This document shows positions 3,244 to 53,900 of a stretch of 64,000 bases of DNA, in pieces. Origin of the DNA: Ignavibacteriota bacterium (GTDB taxonomy: Bacteria > Bacteroidota > Ignavibacteria > Kapaibacteriales > UBA2268). Location: positions 1 through 64,000 of the forward strand of contig JAGQWJ010000002.1 of the NCBI GenBank assembly GCA_020437395.1. Reading direction: 5' to 3'. The position numbers and the translations under genes were made by a program. Under the pieces are notes generated by a model. That model was given only the letters and a program-made list of their open reading frames with translations. It did no database searches and was not told where the DNA came from. How positions within the stretch are numbered: position 1 is the stretch's first letter; the number at the start of each line of letters is the position of its first letter.

Positions 3244-3849
3244 ATGGAATTATTATCTATTCTCGCTTTGATTAGCGTATTCGTTTTCTCTATTAGTGCT
3301 GCCCTATCGTCTATCCAAAAGAAGTACGATATGTTTGGTATATCATTCGTTACTTTCGTTACTGCCGTTGGTGGTGGTACTGTTCGCGATTTGCTTCTTG
3401 GTTGTCATCCTTTATTCTGGATGGAAAATGTATGGTTTGTGGTTTCTATAATGGCTGGGATAGGTGTTACATTTGTATTCAAGAAAAGAATATTATTCCT
3501 GAAGCAAACTTTCTTCCTTTTCGATACTTTGGGTATTAGTTTGTCTGCTATATTAGGTACTCAGAAAGCGATAGACTTCGGAGTTAGCCCATTTATATCT
3601 ATTTTCTTTGGATTAGTAACGGCAGTATTTGGCGGTATAATTAGAGATATGATGACTAACCAAATACCATTAGTTTTCAGAAAAGAGATCTATGCATCTG
3701 CTTGTTTGGCAGGAGCGTTCATTTATATATCTCTGCAATATATAGGTGCACCACTCTGGTTGCTTTATGGGGTACCGACTGTCTTCATATTTGCAATCCG
3801 AATAATCTCTATCAAGTATAAACTATCATTGCCAAGAGTGAGTTTGTAA
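3244..3849 (+). CDS. TRIC-type / UPF0126 (YicG-like) membrane protein
   Basis: A 201-residue protein with about seven membrane helices made of two repeats, each with a glycine-rich signature. GGGTVRD lies near residue 43 and GGIIRD near residue 129, spaced as in the UPF0126/YicG family. Prokaryotic members are homologues of trimeric intracellular cation channels and conduct K+ or Na+; for some members a glycine-related role has been suggested. The length matches the family, and the gene begins with an ATG directly after an AT-rich leader. It appears monocistronic. Family assignment is strong; the ion and physiological role are not determinable here. Confidence 0.92.
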   Translation: MELLSILALISVFVFSISAALSSIQKKYDMFGISFVTFVTAVGGGTVRDLLLGCHPLFWMENVWFVVSIMAGIGVTFVFKKRILFLKQTFFLFDTLGISLSAILGTQKAIDFGVSPFISIFFGLVTAVFGGIIRDMMTNQIPLVFRKEIYASACLAGAFIYISLQYIGAPLWLLYGVPTVFIFAIRIISIKYKLSLPRVSL

Positions 3850-3936
3850 AGGGGGATTACTCTTTTATAAATTTGCCAATGATTGTTTTAGTACGGTTGC
3901 TAAGGCTACAGATTTTAAGCCACTACCCAAATCTAA

Positions 3937-4485
3937 TTATTTCTTATAATCCAATGTCTTAACATCCTTAATTATAGTATTCACTTCCAACTTTACTGGT
4001 ACGTCCAATTTCATATTCTTAAATGAATTCCCTTTTTTGATTGTGCATAGTCCATTAGCTTTCAGCTTCACAACCCCCGATGTTTTGGATATTTCTTCTA
4101 TATTCAATTCGCCTTCCGAAAAACTTATTGAAAGATCGCCTTTCTTAAATGTAATCAGCGTAGAGTTGCTTCCAAGTTGAACATTACCTTTCAAAATATC
4201 TTTACCCTTTCCATCAAGTCCATCTATAATTACAGTCAATCTTTCACTTTTATCATCAGATACCAATTCAAAATCAGCATCGTGGTTCATATCGCTATCT
4301 GCACTATAAAATTTGAGATAACTCGACTTTTCATTTATCTTATCGATTGAATAGTCAACTCCATCTGCTTTAACTAATACTTTCGAATCCGCAACAGTTG
4401 GTTTGCCTTTCGATACACTCGTCAAACCTAAGAAAAGTGCAACAACACCCACCACAATTATTGATTTCAATGTATAATTGTTCAT
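3937..4485 (-). CDS. Secreted protein of unknown function
   Basis: A 182-residue protein with a plausible Sec signal (MNNYTLKSIIVVGVVALFLGLTS is positively charged, then hydrophobic). The mature part alternates polar and hydrophobic residues and is rich in Lys, Asp, Ser and Val, suggesting a beta-sandwich or barrel-like periplasmic fold. There are no paired cysteines, no lipobox and no motif I recognise. The shape is vaguely like YceI-type lipid-binding proteins, but the key motifs are not present, so I do not assign it. It sits alone between the TRIC-like gene (convergent) and the accessory gene pocket. Confidence 0.65.
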   Translation of the reverse strand: MNNYTLKSIIVVGVVALFLGLTSVSKGKPTVADSKVLVKADGVDYSIDKINEKSSYLKFYSADSDMNHDADFELVSDDKSERLTVIIDGLDGKGKDILKGNVQLGSNSTLITFKKGDLSISFSEGELNIEEISKTSGVVKLKANGLCTIKKGNSFKNMKLDVPVKLEVNTIIKDVKTLDYKK

Positions 4486-4705
4486 ACCAATCCACCTAAT
4501 TAATAAAAAAAAAATAAAGAAATTAAAAATTCCCTCTAACTCAATATAATAAACTTTTGATTAACTCACGGAAAGAAAATCACACTTGGAGTTATCTCAA
4601 TATGAAGATAGAAGTCATCCTTATCGATTGGCTTTATCTCTTTATGGATTCAAATAGGCTCAGTGTCTCTGTTTATATTTGAGGAAACGGTCTGCATAAA
4701 TGGCT

Positions 4706-4755: not shown

Positions 4756-5163
4756 TTATTTATTTTCATCAAACCATTTTACAATTGCAGGCATATTTCT
4801 CTCAAAACCACCCGGAATGAAAAAATTCAACACACCTGTTTTCTGGTCAGTTTGGTTTTTAAAGCCGTGCATTGTTTTTGGAGGTATTCTCAAAAATGTT
4901 CCTTTTTCTGCATCAATCCATTTGTCACCAACCATTATTGATATTGTTCCTTCCAAAACATAAAAGACTTCGTCATTGTCCTCGTGTTGGTGTTCACCAG
5001 GACCATCAGAGTTAGGTTTTAACCACCATTCCGAAATACTGTATTTTTCGTTAGTTTCGTTTTCGTCAGCTTTAAATATTGCTGTCATTGTACCACAGTT
5101 ATAAACTCTCCCTTTTCCATCGAGAAGAATTAATGCATCCGTATGATTATTTTTATGTTTCAT
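4756..5163 (-). CDS. Small cupin-domain protein
   Basis: A single-domain cupin of 135 residues when started at the ATG at 5163; a TTG at 5178 would add five residues. The first cupin motif is GEHQHEDNDEVFYVLEGT, with two His and the Glu that would bind a metal. The second motif contains IPPKTMHGFKN with the third His. WWLKPNS and GDKWIDAEKG fit the double-stranded beta-helix. Such small cupins are dioxygenase- or isomerase-like or have sensing roles; the substrate cannot be deduced. It is the last gene of a minus-strand group with the VOC and zinc-ribbon genes, separated from VOC by about 70 bases. Confidence 0.88.
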   Translation of the reverse strand: MKHKNNHTDALILLDGKGRVYNCGTMTAIFKADENETNEKYSISEWWLKPNSDGPGEHQHEDNDEVFYVLEGTISIMVGDKWIDAEKGTFLRIPPKTMHGFKNQTDQKTGVLNFFIPGGFERNMPAIVKWFDENK

Positions 5164-5232
5164 TAATTGTCTTGTCAAATCGCTATTAATATTTAATCAG
5201 AATATTTCATTTCTTTTGCCAAAATAGCTGTT

Positions 5233-5610
5233 CTATTCAGCGTTTTCATCAACTTCAAAAATTCCGAAAACATTGTTGTCTTTGTCTAAAAAATAGCCTT
5301 GCCAACATCTATTTTTAATTGGAAATTTCTCCATAGCAACTTTCCCTCCGTTTCCCTTTATCAATTCCGCAGTTTTGTCAAAATCATCAACCATTATCGA
5401 ACAAGTAAATGCATTGGTTCCGTGTTCCTTTGGTGGCGTTTTTGCAGGACTTTTTAGCAAAGCTCCGTTTATTCCATTAGTGTCTATTCGGTAATATTCA
5501 ATAGGCACATTTTTTTCCTCCGTGAAAGTCCATCCGAACACTTTTTTATAAAATTCAATCTCTCTTTTTGGCTCAGAAGATTGAATTTCAAAATAGCTTA
5601 TCGTATTCAT
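5233..5610 (-). CDS. VOC (glyoxalase/bleomycin-resistance fold) family protein
   Basis: A 125-residue protein with the pattern of a single-chain VOC protein of the small YdcJ/antibiotic-resistance-like class: ISYFEIQSSEPKREIEFYKK at the N-terminus, GINGALL in the middle, SIMVDDFDKTAELIKGNGGK, and QGYFLDKDNNVFGIFE at the end. The last part holds the expected terminal Glu metal ligand in FGIFE. VOC proteins bind a divalent metal and act as lyases, dioxygenases or drug-binding proteins. No substrate can be assigned. It lies between the zinc-ribbon/alpha-CTD gene (35 bases upstream) and the cupin gene, likely co-transcribed. Confidence 0.88.
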   Translation of the reverse strand: MNTISYFEIQSSEPKREIEFYKKVFGWTFTEEKNVPIEYYRIDTNGINGALLKSPAKTPPKEHGTNAFTCSIMVDDFDKTAELIKGNGGKVAMEKFPIKNRCWQGYFLDKDNNVFGIFEVDENAE

Positions 5611-5645
5611 ATTTCGTTGTTTTATCCAATTGACTGTTGCAAATT

Positions 5646-5936
5646 TTAATTTTTAAAAGAAAGTCCGTTTTCAGTTAGTGCCTTTTTGAGTTTTGGAATT
5701 GTACTCGGTCCCATTCCGTGAAGATTAATTATTTCCTTTTCTGTCCACTTGGCTAAGTCCTCCAATGTCTTAATGTTTTCTCTTTCTAATGCTCGTCTTG
5801 CTGGAGCACCAATTAAAGCTAGAAAACTGTCTTTAGGTTTGCGTTCTTCTTCACAAATTGGACAGGTCGGACAGTCACTGCTTTTATAAAACTGATGTCC
5901 TTTTTTACAGGTCTTTAAAGTTCCTTTTGTCGCCAT
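5646..5936 (-). CDS. Zinc-ribbon plus RNA polymerase alpha-CTD-like small protein
   Basis: A 96-residue protein in two parts. Residues 8-30 contain C10, H14, C22, C25 and C28 (CKKGHQF then CPTCPIC), a probable treble-clef or zinc-ribbon site. Residues 39-96 closely resemble the C-terminal domain of RNA polymerase alpha: ALERENIKTLEDLAKWTEKE, then the helix-hairpin-helix HGMGPSTIPKLKKALTENG. In real alpha subunits this fold contacts UP-element DNA and activators. Here it stands alone without the alpha N-terminal domain, so it may bind DNA or RNA polymerase partners. Function is unknown; the domain resemblance is what I can see. Confidence 0.8.
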   Translation of the reverse strand: MATKGTLKTCKKGHQFYKSSDCPTCPICEEERKPKDSFLALIGAPARRALERENIKTLEDLAKWTEKEIINLHGMGPSTIPKLKKALTENGLSFKN

Positions 5937-6007: not shown

Positions 6008-6130
6008 CTAAATTTATTGAAAATTGTATTCATACTTCAGTTTATCCAGCACTATTGGTGATGCAAATGTGAATATCTCATTCAATTGAGTTTATTCAAC
6101 CTTTTGAAAGTTATTAATACATTAAGTTTA

Positions 6131-6189
6131 CCCAAATATACAAAAAACCTTATATTTCCCCACAAAAAACCTCGAACATTGTCCGAGGT
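6131..6189 (-). repeat. Copy A of the terminator-promoter direct repeat
   Basis: This stretch matches copy B (7144-7203) with only about six differences or gaps over about 60 bases. It begins cccaaatatacaaaaaacct and ends in a hairpin sequence ending tccgaggt. Weaker similarity continues towards the stop codon of the gene on its right. On the minus strand the copy contains a terminator hairpin for mrr and a -7 box TATATTTG (6140-6133). The -33-like TTG here is displaced to 22 bases away, so its promoter is probably weaker than that of copy B. Confidence 0.85.
6164..6189 (-). terminator. Rho-independent terminator of the mrr gene
   Basis: Minus-strand reading gives ACCTCGGAC-AAT-GTTCGAGGT, a 9-bp stem with one G-T wobble, followed by a run of T. 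It lies about 30 bases after the mrr stop codon, the same distance as the matching hairpin after sdhB. Confidence 0.85.
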
Positions 6190-6219
6190 ACTTGTTATAA
6201 TTTAATCTAGGTACTATAT

Positions 6220-7116
6220 CTATTCATCTTCAAAAAAGTCGTTATCAATCTCTTTGACCTCATAAACGGTTTTCACTTGGACTCCTACGTTGTATTGTAA
6301 CATTAAGTCGACCAATTTTGCTCCGTCAATTAGAATTATTGAGTGATGTGCTTCCCTTGCTTTTTTAATTGCTGATTCGTCAAAACTCGAAGTGGTAATA
6401 AATACTCCTTTACTTGTATCACCGCTCATAGCTCCTATGAAGTTTCTTATGTCCTTTTCTCTAACCTTGTTCTCATTATATCGTTTGGCCTGAGTATAAA
6501 TCTTTTCTAATCCTAATTTGTCCTCATTTATAATCCCATCAATTCCTCCATCTCCTGACTTTGAAGTTTCGATGAAATCTCCGTATCCCATTCGTTTTAA
6601 AAGAATCAAAATAACTTTTTCAAAATAATAAGGGTCAATTTCTTTAAGCCTTTCAAGAAGATTAGTCTTTACTTCCGTTTCAATTGACGAAAATCCCGAA
6701 TCAATTAAGTCCTGCGGTGAAGCGTTTTCAACATTGACTGATTCTAGCTCAATTTCGTTTTCTTTTTCAATTTTGACAGTTTCTCTGTGTTTTATAAAGT
6801 CTTGATCATTTTGAAGATCTTGGAGGGATAAAGTACCAGTTGCTAATTGCTTTTTCCCCTTTTCTGTGATTTTAACCATTCCACGATTTGGATAATTTAC
6901 AAATTTAGCCATTTTCAAATAAGACTTTCCCCACAGAATTCTATCCAATAAAACGTTTGCTCCGGAACTAGTTTTTTGATTCAACAAACCATTAGTTAAA
7001 TTTGAATAATATAAATCACGAACTTTAGATGCTAATTCACGACTTTTTAAAGATTCGTAAGAGTTTAATACCTTTAAAATTGGTATGAAGGTTTCATGAT
7101 ATTTAGGTAGTTCCAT
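6220..7116 (-). CDS. Mrr-like restriction endonuclease
   Basis: A 298-residue protein with the Mrr layout. Residues 1-100 are a winged-helix-like DNA-binding domain (Mrr_N type, with RGMVKITEKGKKQL near the wing). A linker follows, then a PD-(D/E)XK Mrr catalytic domain at about 155-280. The catalytic pattern is GDGGIDGII (Asp at 193) followed by YTQAKRY (Gln209, Lys211), the Q-x-K variant usual for Mrr. FITTSSFDESAIKKA is the usual next helix. Mrr enzymes cut methylated or foreign DNA (type IV restriction). The gene has no cognate methylase nearby and is flanked by a direct repeat, suggesting recent insertion. Confidence 0.92.
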   Translation of the reverse strand: MELPKYHETFIPILKVLNSYESLKSRELASKVRDLYYSNLTNGLLNQKTSSGANVLLDRILWGKSYLKMAKFVNYPNRGMVKITEKGKKQLATGTLSLQDLQNDQDFIKHRETVKIEKENEIELESVNVENASPQDLIDSGFSSIETEVKTNLLERLKEIDPYYFEKVILILLKRMGYGDFIETSKSGDGGIDGIINEDKLGLEKIYTQAKRYNENKVREKDIRNFIGAMSGDTSKGVFITTSSFDESAIKKAREAHHSIILIDGAKLVDLMLQYNVGVQVKTVYEVKEIDNDFFEDE

Positions 7117-7145
7117 TTTAATACTTTTAAATTCAAAAATTGACC

Positions 7146-7175
7146 CAAATATACAAAAAACCTTATATTCCCCAA
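7146..7175 (-). promoter_or_regulatory. Predicted Bacteroidota-type promoter of mrr
   Basis: On the minus strand TTG (7175-7173) is followed by 19 bases and then TATATTTG (7153-7146), matching the -33/-7 consensus TTTG-N19-21-TAnnTTTG. Transcription would start near 7139, giving a leader of about 20 bases before the mrr ATG. It lies inside repeat copy B immediately after the sdhB terminator. Confidence 0.65.
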
Positions 7176-7176
7176 C

Positions 7177-7203
7177 AAAAAAACCTCGAACTATGCCCGA
7201 GGT
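7177..7203 (-). terminator. Rho-independent terminator of the sdhCAB operon
   Basis: ACCTCGGGC-ATA-GTTCGAGGT on the minus strand forms a 9-bp stem (two G-T wobbles) followed by seven T. It starts about 32 bases after the sdhB stop codon. Confidence 0.88.
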
Positions 7204-7235
7204 CTTTTTAAAAATATAATCTATGTCTAAACCGA

Positions 7236-7988
7236 TTAGTCTCTGTATGCAGTAGCTCTTGCTTTTGCATATTCGAAATTCATCTCTGAGATGAACTCAA
7301 CAGAAATTGATTTAGGACATGCCGCCTCACATTCATAGTGATTAGTACATGAGCCGAATCCTTCTTTGTCCATTTGCTCAACCATTGCTATAGTACGCTT
7401 TTTCTTCTCTGCTTGGCCTTGTGGTAATACGTTTAAGTGCTTTAGCTTTGCCGATGTAAATAGCATAGCTGCTCCGTTAGGGCATGCCGCAACGCATGCA
7501 CCACAACCTATACAAGCCGCTGCATCCATTGCTACATCTGCTTTAGATTTTGGAACTGGTATATCGTTGGCATCTGGAGCAGAGCCCGTTTTTATGCTTA
7601 TATATCCACCAGACTGAATTATTCTGTCTAAGGCACTTCTATCAACAACCAAATCTCTTATCACTGGGAATGAATTGTTTCTGAATGGCTCTATATAAAT
7701 TTCTTGACCATCTTTGAACTTTCTCATGTGCAGTTGACAAGCTGTAGTTGCTTTCTCCGGCCCATGTGGGTTCCCATTGATTGTCATAGAACAAGACCCA
7801 CAAATTCCCTCACGACAGTCGTGGTCGAAGGCTACAGGGTCTTTGCCCTCTACTATCAAATCTTCGTTCAGTACGTCTAGCATTTCAAGAAATGACATAT
7901 CTTCAGAAATATCACTAACAGCATATTGCTCAAAAGCACCATTAGTTTTATTGTTCTTCTGACGCCATATATGAAGTTTTAAATTCAT
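7236..7988 (-). CDS. sdhB: Succinate dehydrogenase/fumarate reductase iron-sulfur subunit
   Basis: This 250-residue subunit carries electrons from SdhA to the membrane quinone site. The 2Fe-2S ligands are C58, C63, C66 and C84 (CREGICGSC ... TACQLH). The C-terminal ferredoxin-like domain has [12 protein letters not shown] (159-170) and [12 protein letters not shown] (214-225), supplying the 4Fe-4S and 3Fe-4S clusters. Sequence and length fit the Bacteroidota type B enzyme. It is the last gene of sdhCAB, starts 19 bases after sdhA, and is followed by a clear terminator. The direction of catalysis (oxidase or reductase) cannot be told from the sequence. Confidence 0.97.
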
Positions 7989-50936: not shown

Positions 50937-53900
50937 ATGAGAAAGCTTTTTATCCTTTTCTTTGTATTAGCATTATCTGCAACCCAACTGTTTTCACAAA
51001 CATGGTTTAACGAAATTTCAGACGCTGCTGGACTATCAGAAACTAAAGGCTTCCGGGTTTGGTTAGCAGATGTGAATGGTGATGACTATCCCGATTTACT
51101 TTGGGGTGGTGATAAAGGGGCATTATTCAACAGTATCTATCTAATGATGAATGTTCCTAATCCAGATCAAAACTCAAGTGTTAAGAGGATTTTCCAAGAT
51201 TATACTGCCGAATCAGGACTTCAAAAAAGTAGAATTGATACGAATATCAGTAGAACAGTCGATATAGCTGCCCTAGCTGATTTAGATAATGATGGTGATT
51301 TGGATATTGTTACAAGTATATATACGCATAGAGTCCAAAACTATAAGAGCACTGGTGACAGATCGGAGGTTATGCTAAATGATGGAAACGGACATTTTAC
51401 TTTAGTTGATAATCACGGTCTTGATGATTTTAATTATGCAAGTAGTTTAGAATTGGGATTGACTAATACAACAGGGTTATCATTTCTTGACTATGATTTG
51501 GATGGTAATATTGATTTATATGTAGGTACTTGGTTCGCACACTATGGCGAAGGTGCAGATGTATATATGGGTAATTTCTTGTTCAAAGGTAATGGAGATG
51601 GTACATTTCAAGAAGGTATAAGATTAGGTGCTACTGAACCTCTATATGGAACTAATGTTACGGACTGGAACAATGATGGATGGCCTGATATTATAAATTC
51701 GCCTTATTGCCGTACACCTGGCCAATTTTTTAAAAATGTAAATGGAGAATTTATTGAAGCATCGTTCGAAGCTGGGTACAATGCTCAAAAACTAGGCGGT
51801 GACCACGGCCAGAATCTCTGTCAATGGGAAGCAAACCCAGCTGATTTTGATAATGATGGTGATATGGATTTGTTAGAAGTAAAAGTACACGGTGGTTACA
51901 ATCCCGGTGAAGGTAGAACAACAATCAGTTTAAATGCTGGAATAGAAAACGGTTACAAATACGAATGGGATTTGAAAAGAATAAATAGAGCAGCACCTAT
52001 GGAATCACACTTAGGTGATCAAGGTGGTACTTGGTTCGATTTTGATAATGACGGAAGGCAAGACATAGCTTTAGGCCAAAACTCTTATCCTTCGGCTAAT
52101 ATATATGGTCAAGAAAGATTGTATTTACTTCACCAAGATGAGTCTGGAACTTTTAATGAGGTTTTACCTAGTGTTACTAAACTAGACACTTTGAAAGAAG
52201 CTCACTCTATGGAACCAGCCGATTTTGATATGGATGGTGATCAAGATTTATTTGTATCCCGTATAGTCCGAGAAACAATAATTGAAAACGGTGAACCAAA
52301 GAATATTAACTATAATGCTATAGAGTTAGTCGAAAATAAAAAAGCTGAGGAAAATAATTTTATACAAATCAAATTAGATAAAAACTCGACTATTCAAAAT
52401 GCGAATGGAGCATATATTGGAGCCAAAATATTCGTTTACACGGGCGAAAATACTCAGAAACAAGAAATTCAATCTGGCTTAGGACATTTCGCGGGTATGC
52501 AGCCTTTTATTAAGACATTTGGGATCGGAAAACAAACCACTATTGATTCAATCGTGGTTATTTACCCTAATAAAGCTCAAGATAGAGTTGTTTTATATAC
52601 ATTACCTATAAATACATTGGTAAGAATTGGAGATGAAGTTACTTATGTAGATATGACAAATAGTGAATCAAAATTATTAACAACTCTCGAATATGGTAAT
52701 TTTAATTTTGGTAGAGGAAATGTGAACAAGACAACTACAAAAAATTTGGAACTAGTTAACCTCTCAATGAAGAATGATTCGCCTATAACTATAACAAAAG
52801 TTGAAATGGAAGGTGACCCCGAACTAAAATTTGATAGTTCAATATTACCGATTACTGTTTGTTGCAAAGATTCAGTATTAAACTTACCAATTAGTTTAAC
52901 ACCTTCTAAACGTACAGAATATACTTCAAAAATTACTATTTACAATAATTCTGATAATGTGCCAGTACTTACAACAAACGTATTTGCTGAAGGATTCGAA
53001 CCAAAACCAGTTCTTAGTGTTAACTCTACTTTAATCAAATTTGAAGGCGTTTGGGTTGACAGTACACAAAAATTTGTTGCTGAATTTATGAACAGCGGTG
53101 AAGATGACTTAGAAATTATCTCAATTAAATTAAATGGAAACGAAGAAGTATTCACCATTACTGAGGATACGCCAATAACTTTACAAAGAGGTGAAAAGAC
53201 ACTAGTTGGAATAACTTTTACTCCAAACCAGAAAAATACTTTCAAATCAAATCTTGATATAGTATCGAATGCATATAATAAAGATACTTTGTCATCAATA
53301 GATTTAATTGGCATTTGTGATGGTCCAAATTCAATATTGAAAACAGACGCTGGATTCGTTATAGTATTTGGAGATGTACCTGTGAATAGTAGTAAAGAAA
53401 GAATATTAAAACTTTCAAATGATGGTGAAGGAGAACTATTAGTTAACTCTATTGAGATAGATCCAGTTGGTGAGTTTTCACATTCAGTTGAGAATTTTCC
53501 TTTACGAATAACTAATGATTATGATTTAACACTTAAATTTTCTCCAAAAAGTGAAGAGTTCTCAACTGCACAATTAATAATTAATAGTGATGCTGTTAAC
53601 GAACCAAAATTTGAAAAGAAAATGACTGGAAATGGTGTAGTAATCTCCAGCGTCGATATGTGGGAAAATGGTAATAAAACTTATCATTTCAGTATAACTC
53701 CTAATCCAGTGAATCAGAGTAGTAAGTTAATTATAGAATCTTTAGACCCATCTAACGCTGGGCAATTATCAGCCGAAATGTATGATGCTACTGGTATGAA
53801 AGTTATGAATTTATTTAGTCCTCGCCATATATCAAACAACACAGAATTTGATTTGGAAGTAAGTAACTTAGTATCAGGGACATACTATATTAGAATATAT

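Follow-up and report, generated by a model that had tools for sequence, protein, structure and literature searches.

A copied sdhB 3' end brackets variable genes in arrays behind the succinate dehydrogenase operon of four related bacterial species

Introduction

It has long been asked how bacterial chromosomes take up single genes when neither a transposase nor an integrase is involved. The question is posed here by one locus of an Ignavibacteriota bacterium, in a stretch of 64,000 nucleotides (contig JAGQWJ010000002.1, positions 1 to 64,000; hereafter the window), where the restriction gene mrr lies between two direct copies of a junction sequence at the end of the succinate dehydrogenase operon sdhCAB. 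An earlier note on this DNA had proposed that mrr was inserted there with duplication of the junction. How did mrr come to be bracketed in this manner, and does the arrangement extend to other genes and other genomes? As will be shown, the two copies around mrr are the most modest case of a site that collects genes in arrays, and mrr forms the one clear bracketed cassette in the window.

Results

Two unit copies bracket mrr in the window

The order of features on the minus strand of the window is sdhB, unit copy 1, mrr, unit copy 2 and then further cargo genes (Table 1). The pair of copies described earlier, of about 60 bases each, is real: when the window is compared with itself, positions 6124-6216 align with 7137-7229 over 95 columns at 84% identity (E = 4e-18), and no other direct repeat of comparable strength lies between genes in the 64 kb. 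The only other repeat in the window, at 51271-51881, is intragenic, sits in a large secreted-type protein and bears no relation to the unit. In genome-wide searches the two copies match each other at 87% over 74 nt, and no third copy was found in the genome (G000; 2.94 Mb in 136 contigs). With units confined to one locus in these searches, an ordinary terminator dispersed through the genome, which the earlier note had named as the finding that would undo its proposal, is ruled out.

The composition of the copies also agrees with the earlier description. Read on the minus strand, each starts with the end of the gene before it, passes through a terminator made of a hairpin and a T tract (fold energies in Table 1) and then reaches the -7 box TATATTTG. 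A TTG stands 19 bases from TATATTTG in the sdhB copy, as had been noted, and the box of this copy presumably acts as the mrr promoter. In the mrr copy the distance is 22, such that the claim that this copy has 'lost the spacing' is debatable. Upstream of its terminator, copy 2 shares a short homology with sdhB (21 identical nt of 25) that is not clearly above what shuffled sequences give. The right halves of the two copies are closer to each other than to any other unit (0.64).

The identity of the gene between the copies is likewise as proposed, since both the N-terminal and the catalytic domain of Mrr are present (Pfam Mrr_N, 5e-17; Mrr_cat, 5e-34) and the full length matches mREase_IV of PADLOC at 6e-55. 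Past copy 2, the three genes in 4756-5936 have no unit between them by model search, and no orthologues of them were found at the examined stretches of the site in sister species. The far border region (3244..4586) follows, and homology to genome G001 picks up again at about window position 4586.

Table 1. Features of the sdhB-mrr locus, in window positions
Feature	Position	Strand	Basis
sdhB, succinate dehydrogenase iron-sulfur subunit; closes the sdhCAB operon and supplies the repeat from its 3' end	7236..7988	(-)	ORF and orthologues
Unit copy 1 (sdhB 3' flank, terminator and promoter), between sdhB and mrr	7137..7235	(-)	Model R1 match 7144-7239, 95 bits
Terminator of copy 1, GACCTCGGGCATAGTTCGAGG and T tract	7177..7204	(-)	Sequence; RNA fold -13.9 kcal/mol
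-7 box of copy 1, TATATTTG; putative mrr promoter	7146..7153	(-)	Sequence and TAnnTTTG count
mrr, predicted type IV methyl-directed restriction endonuclease; cargo gene	6220..7116	(-)	Pfam and PADLOC
Unit copy 2, immediately past the mrr stop codon	6124..6219	(-)	Model R1 match 6131-6224, 84.8 bits
Terminator of copy 2, ACCTCGGACAATGTTCGAGGT and T tract	6163..6189	(-)	Sequence; RNA fold -12.0 kcal/mol
-7 box of copy 2, TATATTTG	6133..6140	(-)	Sequence
HhH/RNA_pol_A_CTD-like gene; further variable cargo	5646-5936	(-)	ORF and Pfam
Glyoxalase gene; further variable cargo	5233-5610	(-)	ORF and Pfam
Cupin gene; further variable cargo	4756-5178	(-)	ORF and Pfam
Far border of the variable site, gene common to the window and G001	3937-4485	(-)	Synteny
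Far border, glycine-transporter-family gene common to all four genomes	3244-3849	(+)	Synteny

Arrays of units at the same site in sister genomes

The sdhB flank was used as a query against 100 related genomes. Matches were obtained in four genomes of the same genus only, where they were many, and the unit was not found in the other 96. A unit model (R1), built from an alignment of 24 units, was then used to search the four whole genomes at E<1e-4. It returned 25 units, every one of them on contigs of the sdhB site and all in the direction of sdhB: two in G000 (contig C59), four in G001 (three on C420 and one on C336), eight in G002 (four each on C109 and C7) and 11 in G003 (all on C14). A weak and decayed 26th unit was seen at G001 C336:4402.

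The array site, defined as the interval from sdhB to the conserved glycine-transporter-family gene, occurs in each of the four genomes that were examined from this genus. In G003 it measures 19 kb from sdhB to the transporter gene, is filled by the array and lies inside the single 147-kb contig 14, flanked on both sides by conserved genes. In G002, contigs C109 and C7 both end inside the array, as is expected of a repeat. The sample is of four species, all with multi-contig assemblies, and two of the arrays are split over more than one contig. The SdhB orthologues of the other three genomes of the genus, with array units adjoining, are 94-96% identical.

The unit carries the end of sdhB

The clear internal units open within the coding end of sdhB (TTCGAATATGCAAAAGCAAGAGC..ACTGCATACAGAGACTAA) and contain the sdhB stop codon. 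After it come a spacer ending in ACATAGATT, an A tract, the hairpin CCTCGGAC-n3-GTTCGAGG, a T tract, GTGGGG and the promoter-like TAnnTTTG. The sdhB coding end is strongly aligned in six internal units, with local alignment scores of 41-61 as compared to shuffle maxima of 17-21, and the sdhB part of these six begins about 42-62 nt ahead of the end of the stop codon; in the others it is shorter, decayed or absent. Since the best-preserved units begin within the last codons of sdhB and run past its stop, the repeated entity is the sdhB 3' end together with the terminator and the promoter that follows.

In the alignment of the units, the terminator and the -7 box are the most conserved parts. The hairpin core is kept in nearly all units, and the folds are mostly between -9 and -17 kcal/mol, with five decayed. 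TAnnTTTG occurs downstream of the terminator in 18 of the 25 units, mostly at one distance, whereas shuffled sequences gave 3.4 on average and nine at most, an excess to which the common ancestry of the units contributes. By inspection, the sdhB tail begins 0-3 nt past the cargo stop codon in several cells of the arrays, and the first cargo gene of G003 appears to terminate on the stop codon of the tail itself.

Variable cargo between conserved borders

The genes held in the arrays are unrelated from cell to cell and are mostly metabolic or without known function. They include a YhcG-type nuclease (G003), which may be set beside the mrr of the window when an association with restriction-modification genes is considered, as well as DJ-1/PfpI, two multicopper-oxidase-like genes (the second recognised by sequence resemblance), a redoxin, a short-chain dehydrogenase, an AraC regulator, a P-type ATPase, DUF1801, a catalase-peroxidase (KatG), a ParE toxin, an AAA protein, a PRC-barrel protein, a cupin and DUF6920; several others have no assigned family. 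Only two cargo blocks were seen in two arrays. One is a 171-aa ORF common to G003 and G001 (94% at the DNA level), the other the DUF6920 cassette common to G001 and G002, which matches at 90% over 1,382 columns, an alignment that sets in where one unit begins and takes in the following unit as well. So few shared orthologues, set beside neighbouring SdhA and SdhB proteins that are 92-98% identical across the genomes compared, indicate that what the site holds is replaced much more rapidly than what borders it.

The units themselves appear to have been reassorted. Their left and right halves show no clear correlation (r = 0.16; 272 of 2000 permutations as high), and some matches are one-sided, as in the G003 units 4262 and 17377, which are alike in their left halves (0.89) and not in their right halves (0.07). 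The two observations together probably reflect crossovers within the shared terminator core. In addition, internal units often carry a TAAGCTC tail type, unlike the present sdhB ends, and unit 6121 of G002 has the TAATCGG tail type of the sdhB of the window and of G001, whereas the sdhB of G002 itself has TAAGCAC. This foreign tail suggests that tails or units move between species.

Comparable duplications at other loci

Three further loci suggest that the phenomenon reaches beyond the genus. In G002, mrr is found at a different place, on contig 69 (20000-30735, L162), where a different gene is followed by a second copy of the final 100 nt of mrr (92%) and the upstream flank of mrr is duplicated too (94%). 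The order there is mrr, three genes, a 304-aa ORF without a Pfam match that is bracketed by these copies of the flank and of the mrr end, and a DNA cytosine methyltransferase-like gene. In Fibrobacter sp. UBA7003, of an independent phylum (L113:10001-17000), the last 60 nt of sdhB (98%) and a terminator are repeated about 5 kb downstream, and the interval holds PIN-type toxin-antitoxin genes. In G035, a member of the same family (L167:923-2379), the sdhB terminator alone is duplicated 1.4 kb downstream (85% of 52 columns).

Other repeats came to light in the course of these searches. On G003 contig 9 (L191:201-1119), an rnpA-like gene is preceded by a toxin-antitoxin-like pair, which is enclosed by direct repeats of 42 bp that match perfectly. 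The same slot has one repeat copy plus other DNA in G002, and hence offers no clean empty site; in G000, a Y1 transposase-like gene (C48:95889) adjoins a single repeat copy. Downstream of sdhB in G006, of the same family (L172:1000-5000), repeats of about 110 bp with GTTAAGC surround small genes, some of them paralogous. These are possibly promoter repeats of tandem paralogues, or attC-like; the genes are mostly on the opposite strand, and the G006 array was judged a different phenomenon. In a 448-kb sequence sample, two candidates for further arrays in G003 proved to be dispersed palindromic repeats that are not target duplications (contig 15) and a tandem gene duplication (contig 12).

Discussion

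On balance we think it probable, though by no great measure, that the sdhB 3' end is a hotspot for insertion with target duplication, the copies being shuffled afterwards by homologous recombination so as to yield insulated cassettes. An insertion at the sdhB 3' end would duplicate its target, made up of the sdhB end, the terminator and the promoter that follows. Each inserted gene would thereby be bracketed by two copies, the front one serving as its promoter and the rear one as its terminator. The front copy would also end the sdh transcript, such that the operon would keep its own terminator intact. Repeated insertions would build a one-directional series of insulated cassettes, and the unit copies would offer homology for RecA-type recombination, either in unequal exchange or upon uptake of DNA from relatives. 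Cassettes could then come and go, and pass from one species to another, with no need of a dedicated recombinase. A route through natural transformation would be compatible with ComEC, encoded in all four genomes, a widespread gene that permits DNA uptake but does not demonstrate it.

The insertion of mrr at the end of the sdh operon with duplication of the junction, as first proposed, is supported, given that the repeat belongs to the sdhB 3' flank, is not dispersed, and that mrr lies elsewhere in G002. As an account of the site it covers too little, since in all four genomes this is a place of multi-gene arrays, in which mrr fills a single cell. An empty site with a single unit was not found, all three same-genus relatives carrying several copies; insertion with duplication is thus read from the structure of the arrays and not from alleles compared before and after the event. 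As the clear tails have similar left edges, they could also go back to one ancient duplication that was copied often, or to a fixed recombination site, instead of to many independent insertions with variable edges.

The latter possibility has to be taken seriously as a rival, since the units have one orientation and a conserved hairpin and their clear tails a similar left edge. On this view, circular single-gene cassettes would be inserted at the sdhB 3' end by a site-specific recombinase whose gene lies elsewhere in the genome, with the unit as attachment site and the hairpin as recognition structure; integron integrases, the Ccr recombinases at rlmH and the integrases of tRNA ends provide the models. 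The position of the array beside a fixed end, the independent unit halves and the tyrosine recombinases encoded in all four genomes would also fit. However, no match exceeded the TIGR02249 cut-off for integron integrases in seven genomes, the nearest ones lacking a stretch at about positions 180-232 of the IntI model, and the attC-like pair RYYYAAC...GTTRRRY occurred in none of the 25 units in a pattern test, grounds on which an integron proper is rejected. Furthermore, the contigs of the site encode no tyrosine or serine recombinase and no Y1 transposase (PF00589, PF00239 and PF01797), save one 68 kb away in G003, and cargo starts and tails are joined at differing positions. We therefore regard such a recombinase as rather unlikely. 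Of phage involvement there was no sign in that no exact pattern match to the unit was found among viral contigs. To the other possibility, a single ancient duplication of the sdhB 3' end followed only by homologous and homology-assisted illegitimate recombination between the arrays of related strains, we assign a similarly small probability. It would account for the frequent TAAGCTC tails of internal units, for the unit-plus-gene blocks common to species and for the recombining halves, and the model put forward for the T6SS immunity arrays of Vibrio explains how genes are added at a fixed 3' end (PMC5361080). Yet the right halves of the window's two copies being most alike points to duplication or conversion within their own lineage, and the G002 contig 69 locus is a second case of duplication, in another sequence.

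Two further explanations are both highly unlikely. The units could be unrelated terminators and promoters that converged under functional constraint, which would agree with the terminator and -7 box being the best conserved parts; they contain sdhB codons, though, and occur nowhere else in the four genomes nor in the 96 others. The multi-unit arrays of the sister species could also be artefacts of assembly or binning, a concern raised by the multi-contig assemblies and by the two arrays that break at contig ends. This is countered by the 11-unit array, which is enclosed in one long contig with conserved genes on either side, and by the agreement of four separate genomes, some with shared cargo blocks.

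Returning to target-duplicating insertion followed by recombination, a bolder generalization can be made, which we put forward tentatively and consider doubtful. The site might be an integron-like platform for gene capture that is independent of a recombinase, in which a housekeeping terminator and promoter act as a self-copying bracket, the sole dedicated part needed, and any gene joined to it would become an insulated, expressed and tradable cassette. Whichever holds, the site offers a natural series in which one junction has been copied up to eleven times, with differing genes between the copies, in four related species whose SdhB proteins are about 95% identical. This makes it approachable whether target-duplicating insertion recurs, where its breakpoints fall and whether it is the terminator-promoter bracket that allows foreign genes to be kept. 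If our reading holds, genes for defence and stress may preferentially settle at the terminators of operons with strong expression.

Comparison with known systems

The earlier note knew of no described element of this kind. There is a precedent for the event, namely the insertion of restriction-modification genes with long target duplication in Helicobacter pylori (Nobusato et al. 2000, as cited in PMC3031569 and PMC1643837). As far as those accounts describe it, the Helicobacter case is like the sdhB site in that long direct repeats of the target stand on either side of a restriction gene with no transposase, and in both the repeats can later drive unequal exchange. It differs, going by the same accounts, in that insertions were compared at separate sites of two strains, whereas many unrelated genes occupy one site here, and in that the repeated target at sdhB holds a terminator and a promoter and builds an array. 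The multi-cassette array would thus be a new variant of target-duplicating insertion, an event which in itself has been seen before.

In the T6SS immunity arrays of Vibrio cholerae, genes accumulate behind the 3' end of a conserved cluster (Kirchberger et al. 2017, PMC5361080). They were proposed to arise by recombination, both homologous and of the illegitimate kind that homology facilitates, with no specific integration site and with exchange between strains and species; all of their cargo belongs to a single functional class, and the old effector genes become displaced (PMC5361080). At the sdhB site, by contrast, the cargo is heterogeneous, and sdhB stays intact with its 3' end copied. The resemblance to a chromosomal integron array is in the one-directional cassettes, the related hairpin repeats between them and the position beside a fixed end; unlike an integron array, the sdhB site has no IntI and no attC-like pair, and its repeat, in which a terminator and a promoter are contained, is derived from sdhB.

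At the 3' end of rlmH, SCC elements with their Ccr recombinases form tandem arrays in which each element restores or copies the gene end. The sdhB site is similar in its tandem elements at a gene 3' end and in the copying of the target end, which is clear in six internal units; it differs in having no ccr-type or other recombinase, and in being made of single genes and small operons, not large elements. Finally, the minimal mobile elements of Neisseria are variable genes between two conserved genes, swapped by recombination, and are not known to have a repeated unit for each gene. Both they and the sdhB site are variable between conserved genes, but only at the sdhB site does each cassette have a bracket of its own.
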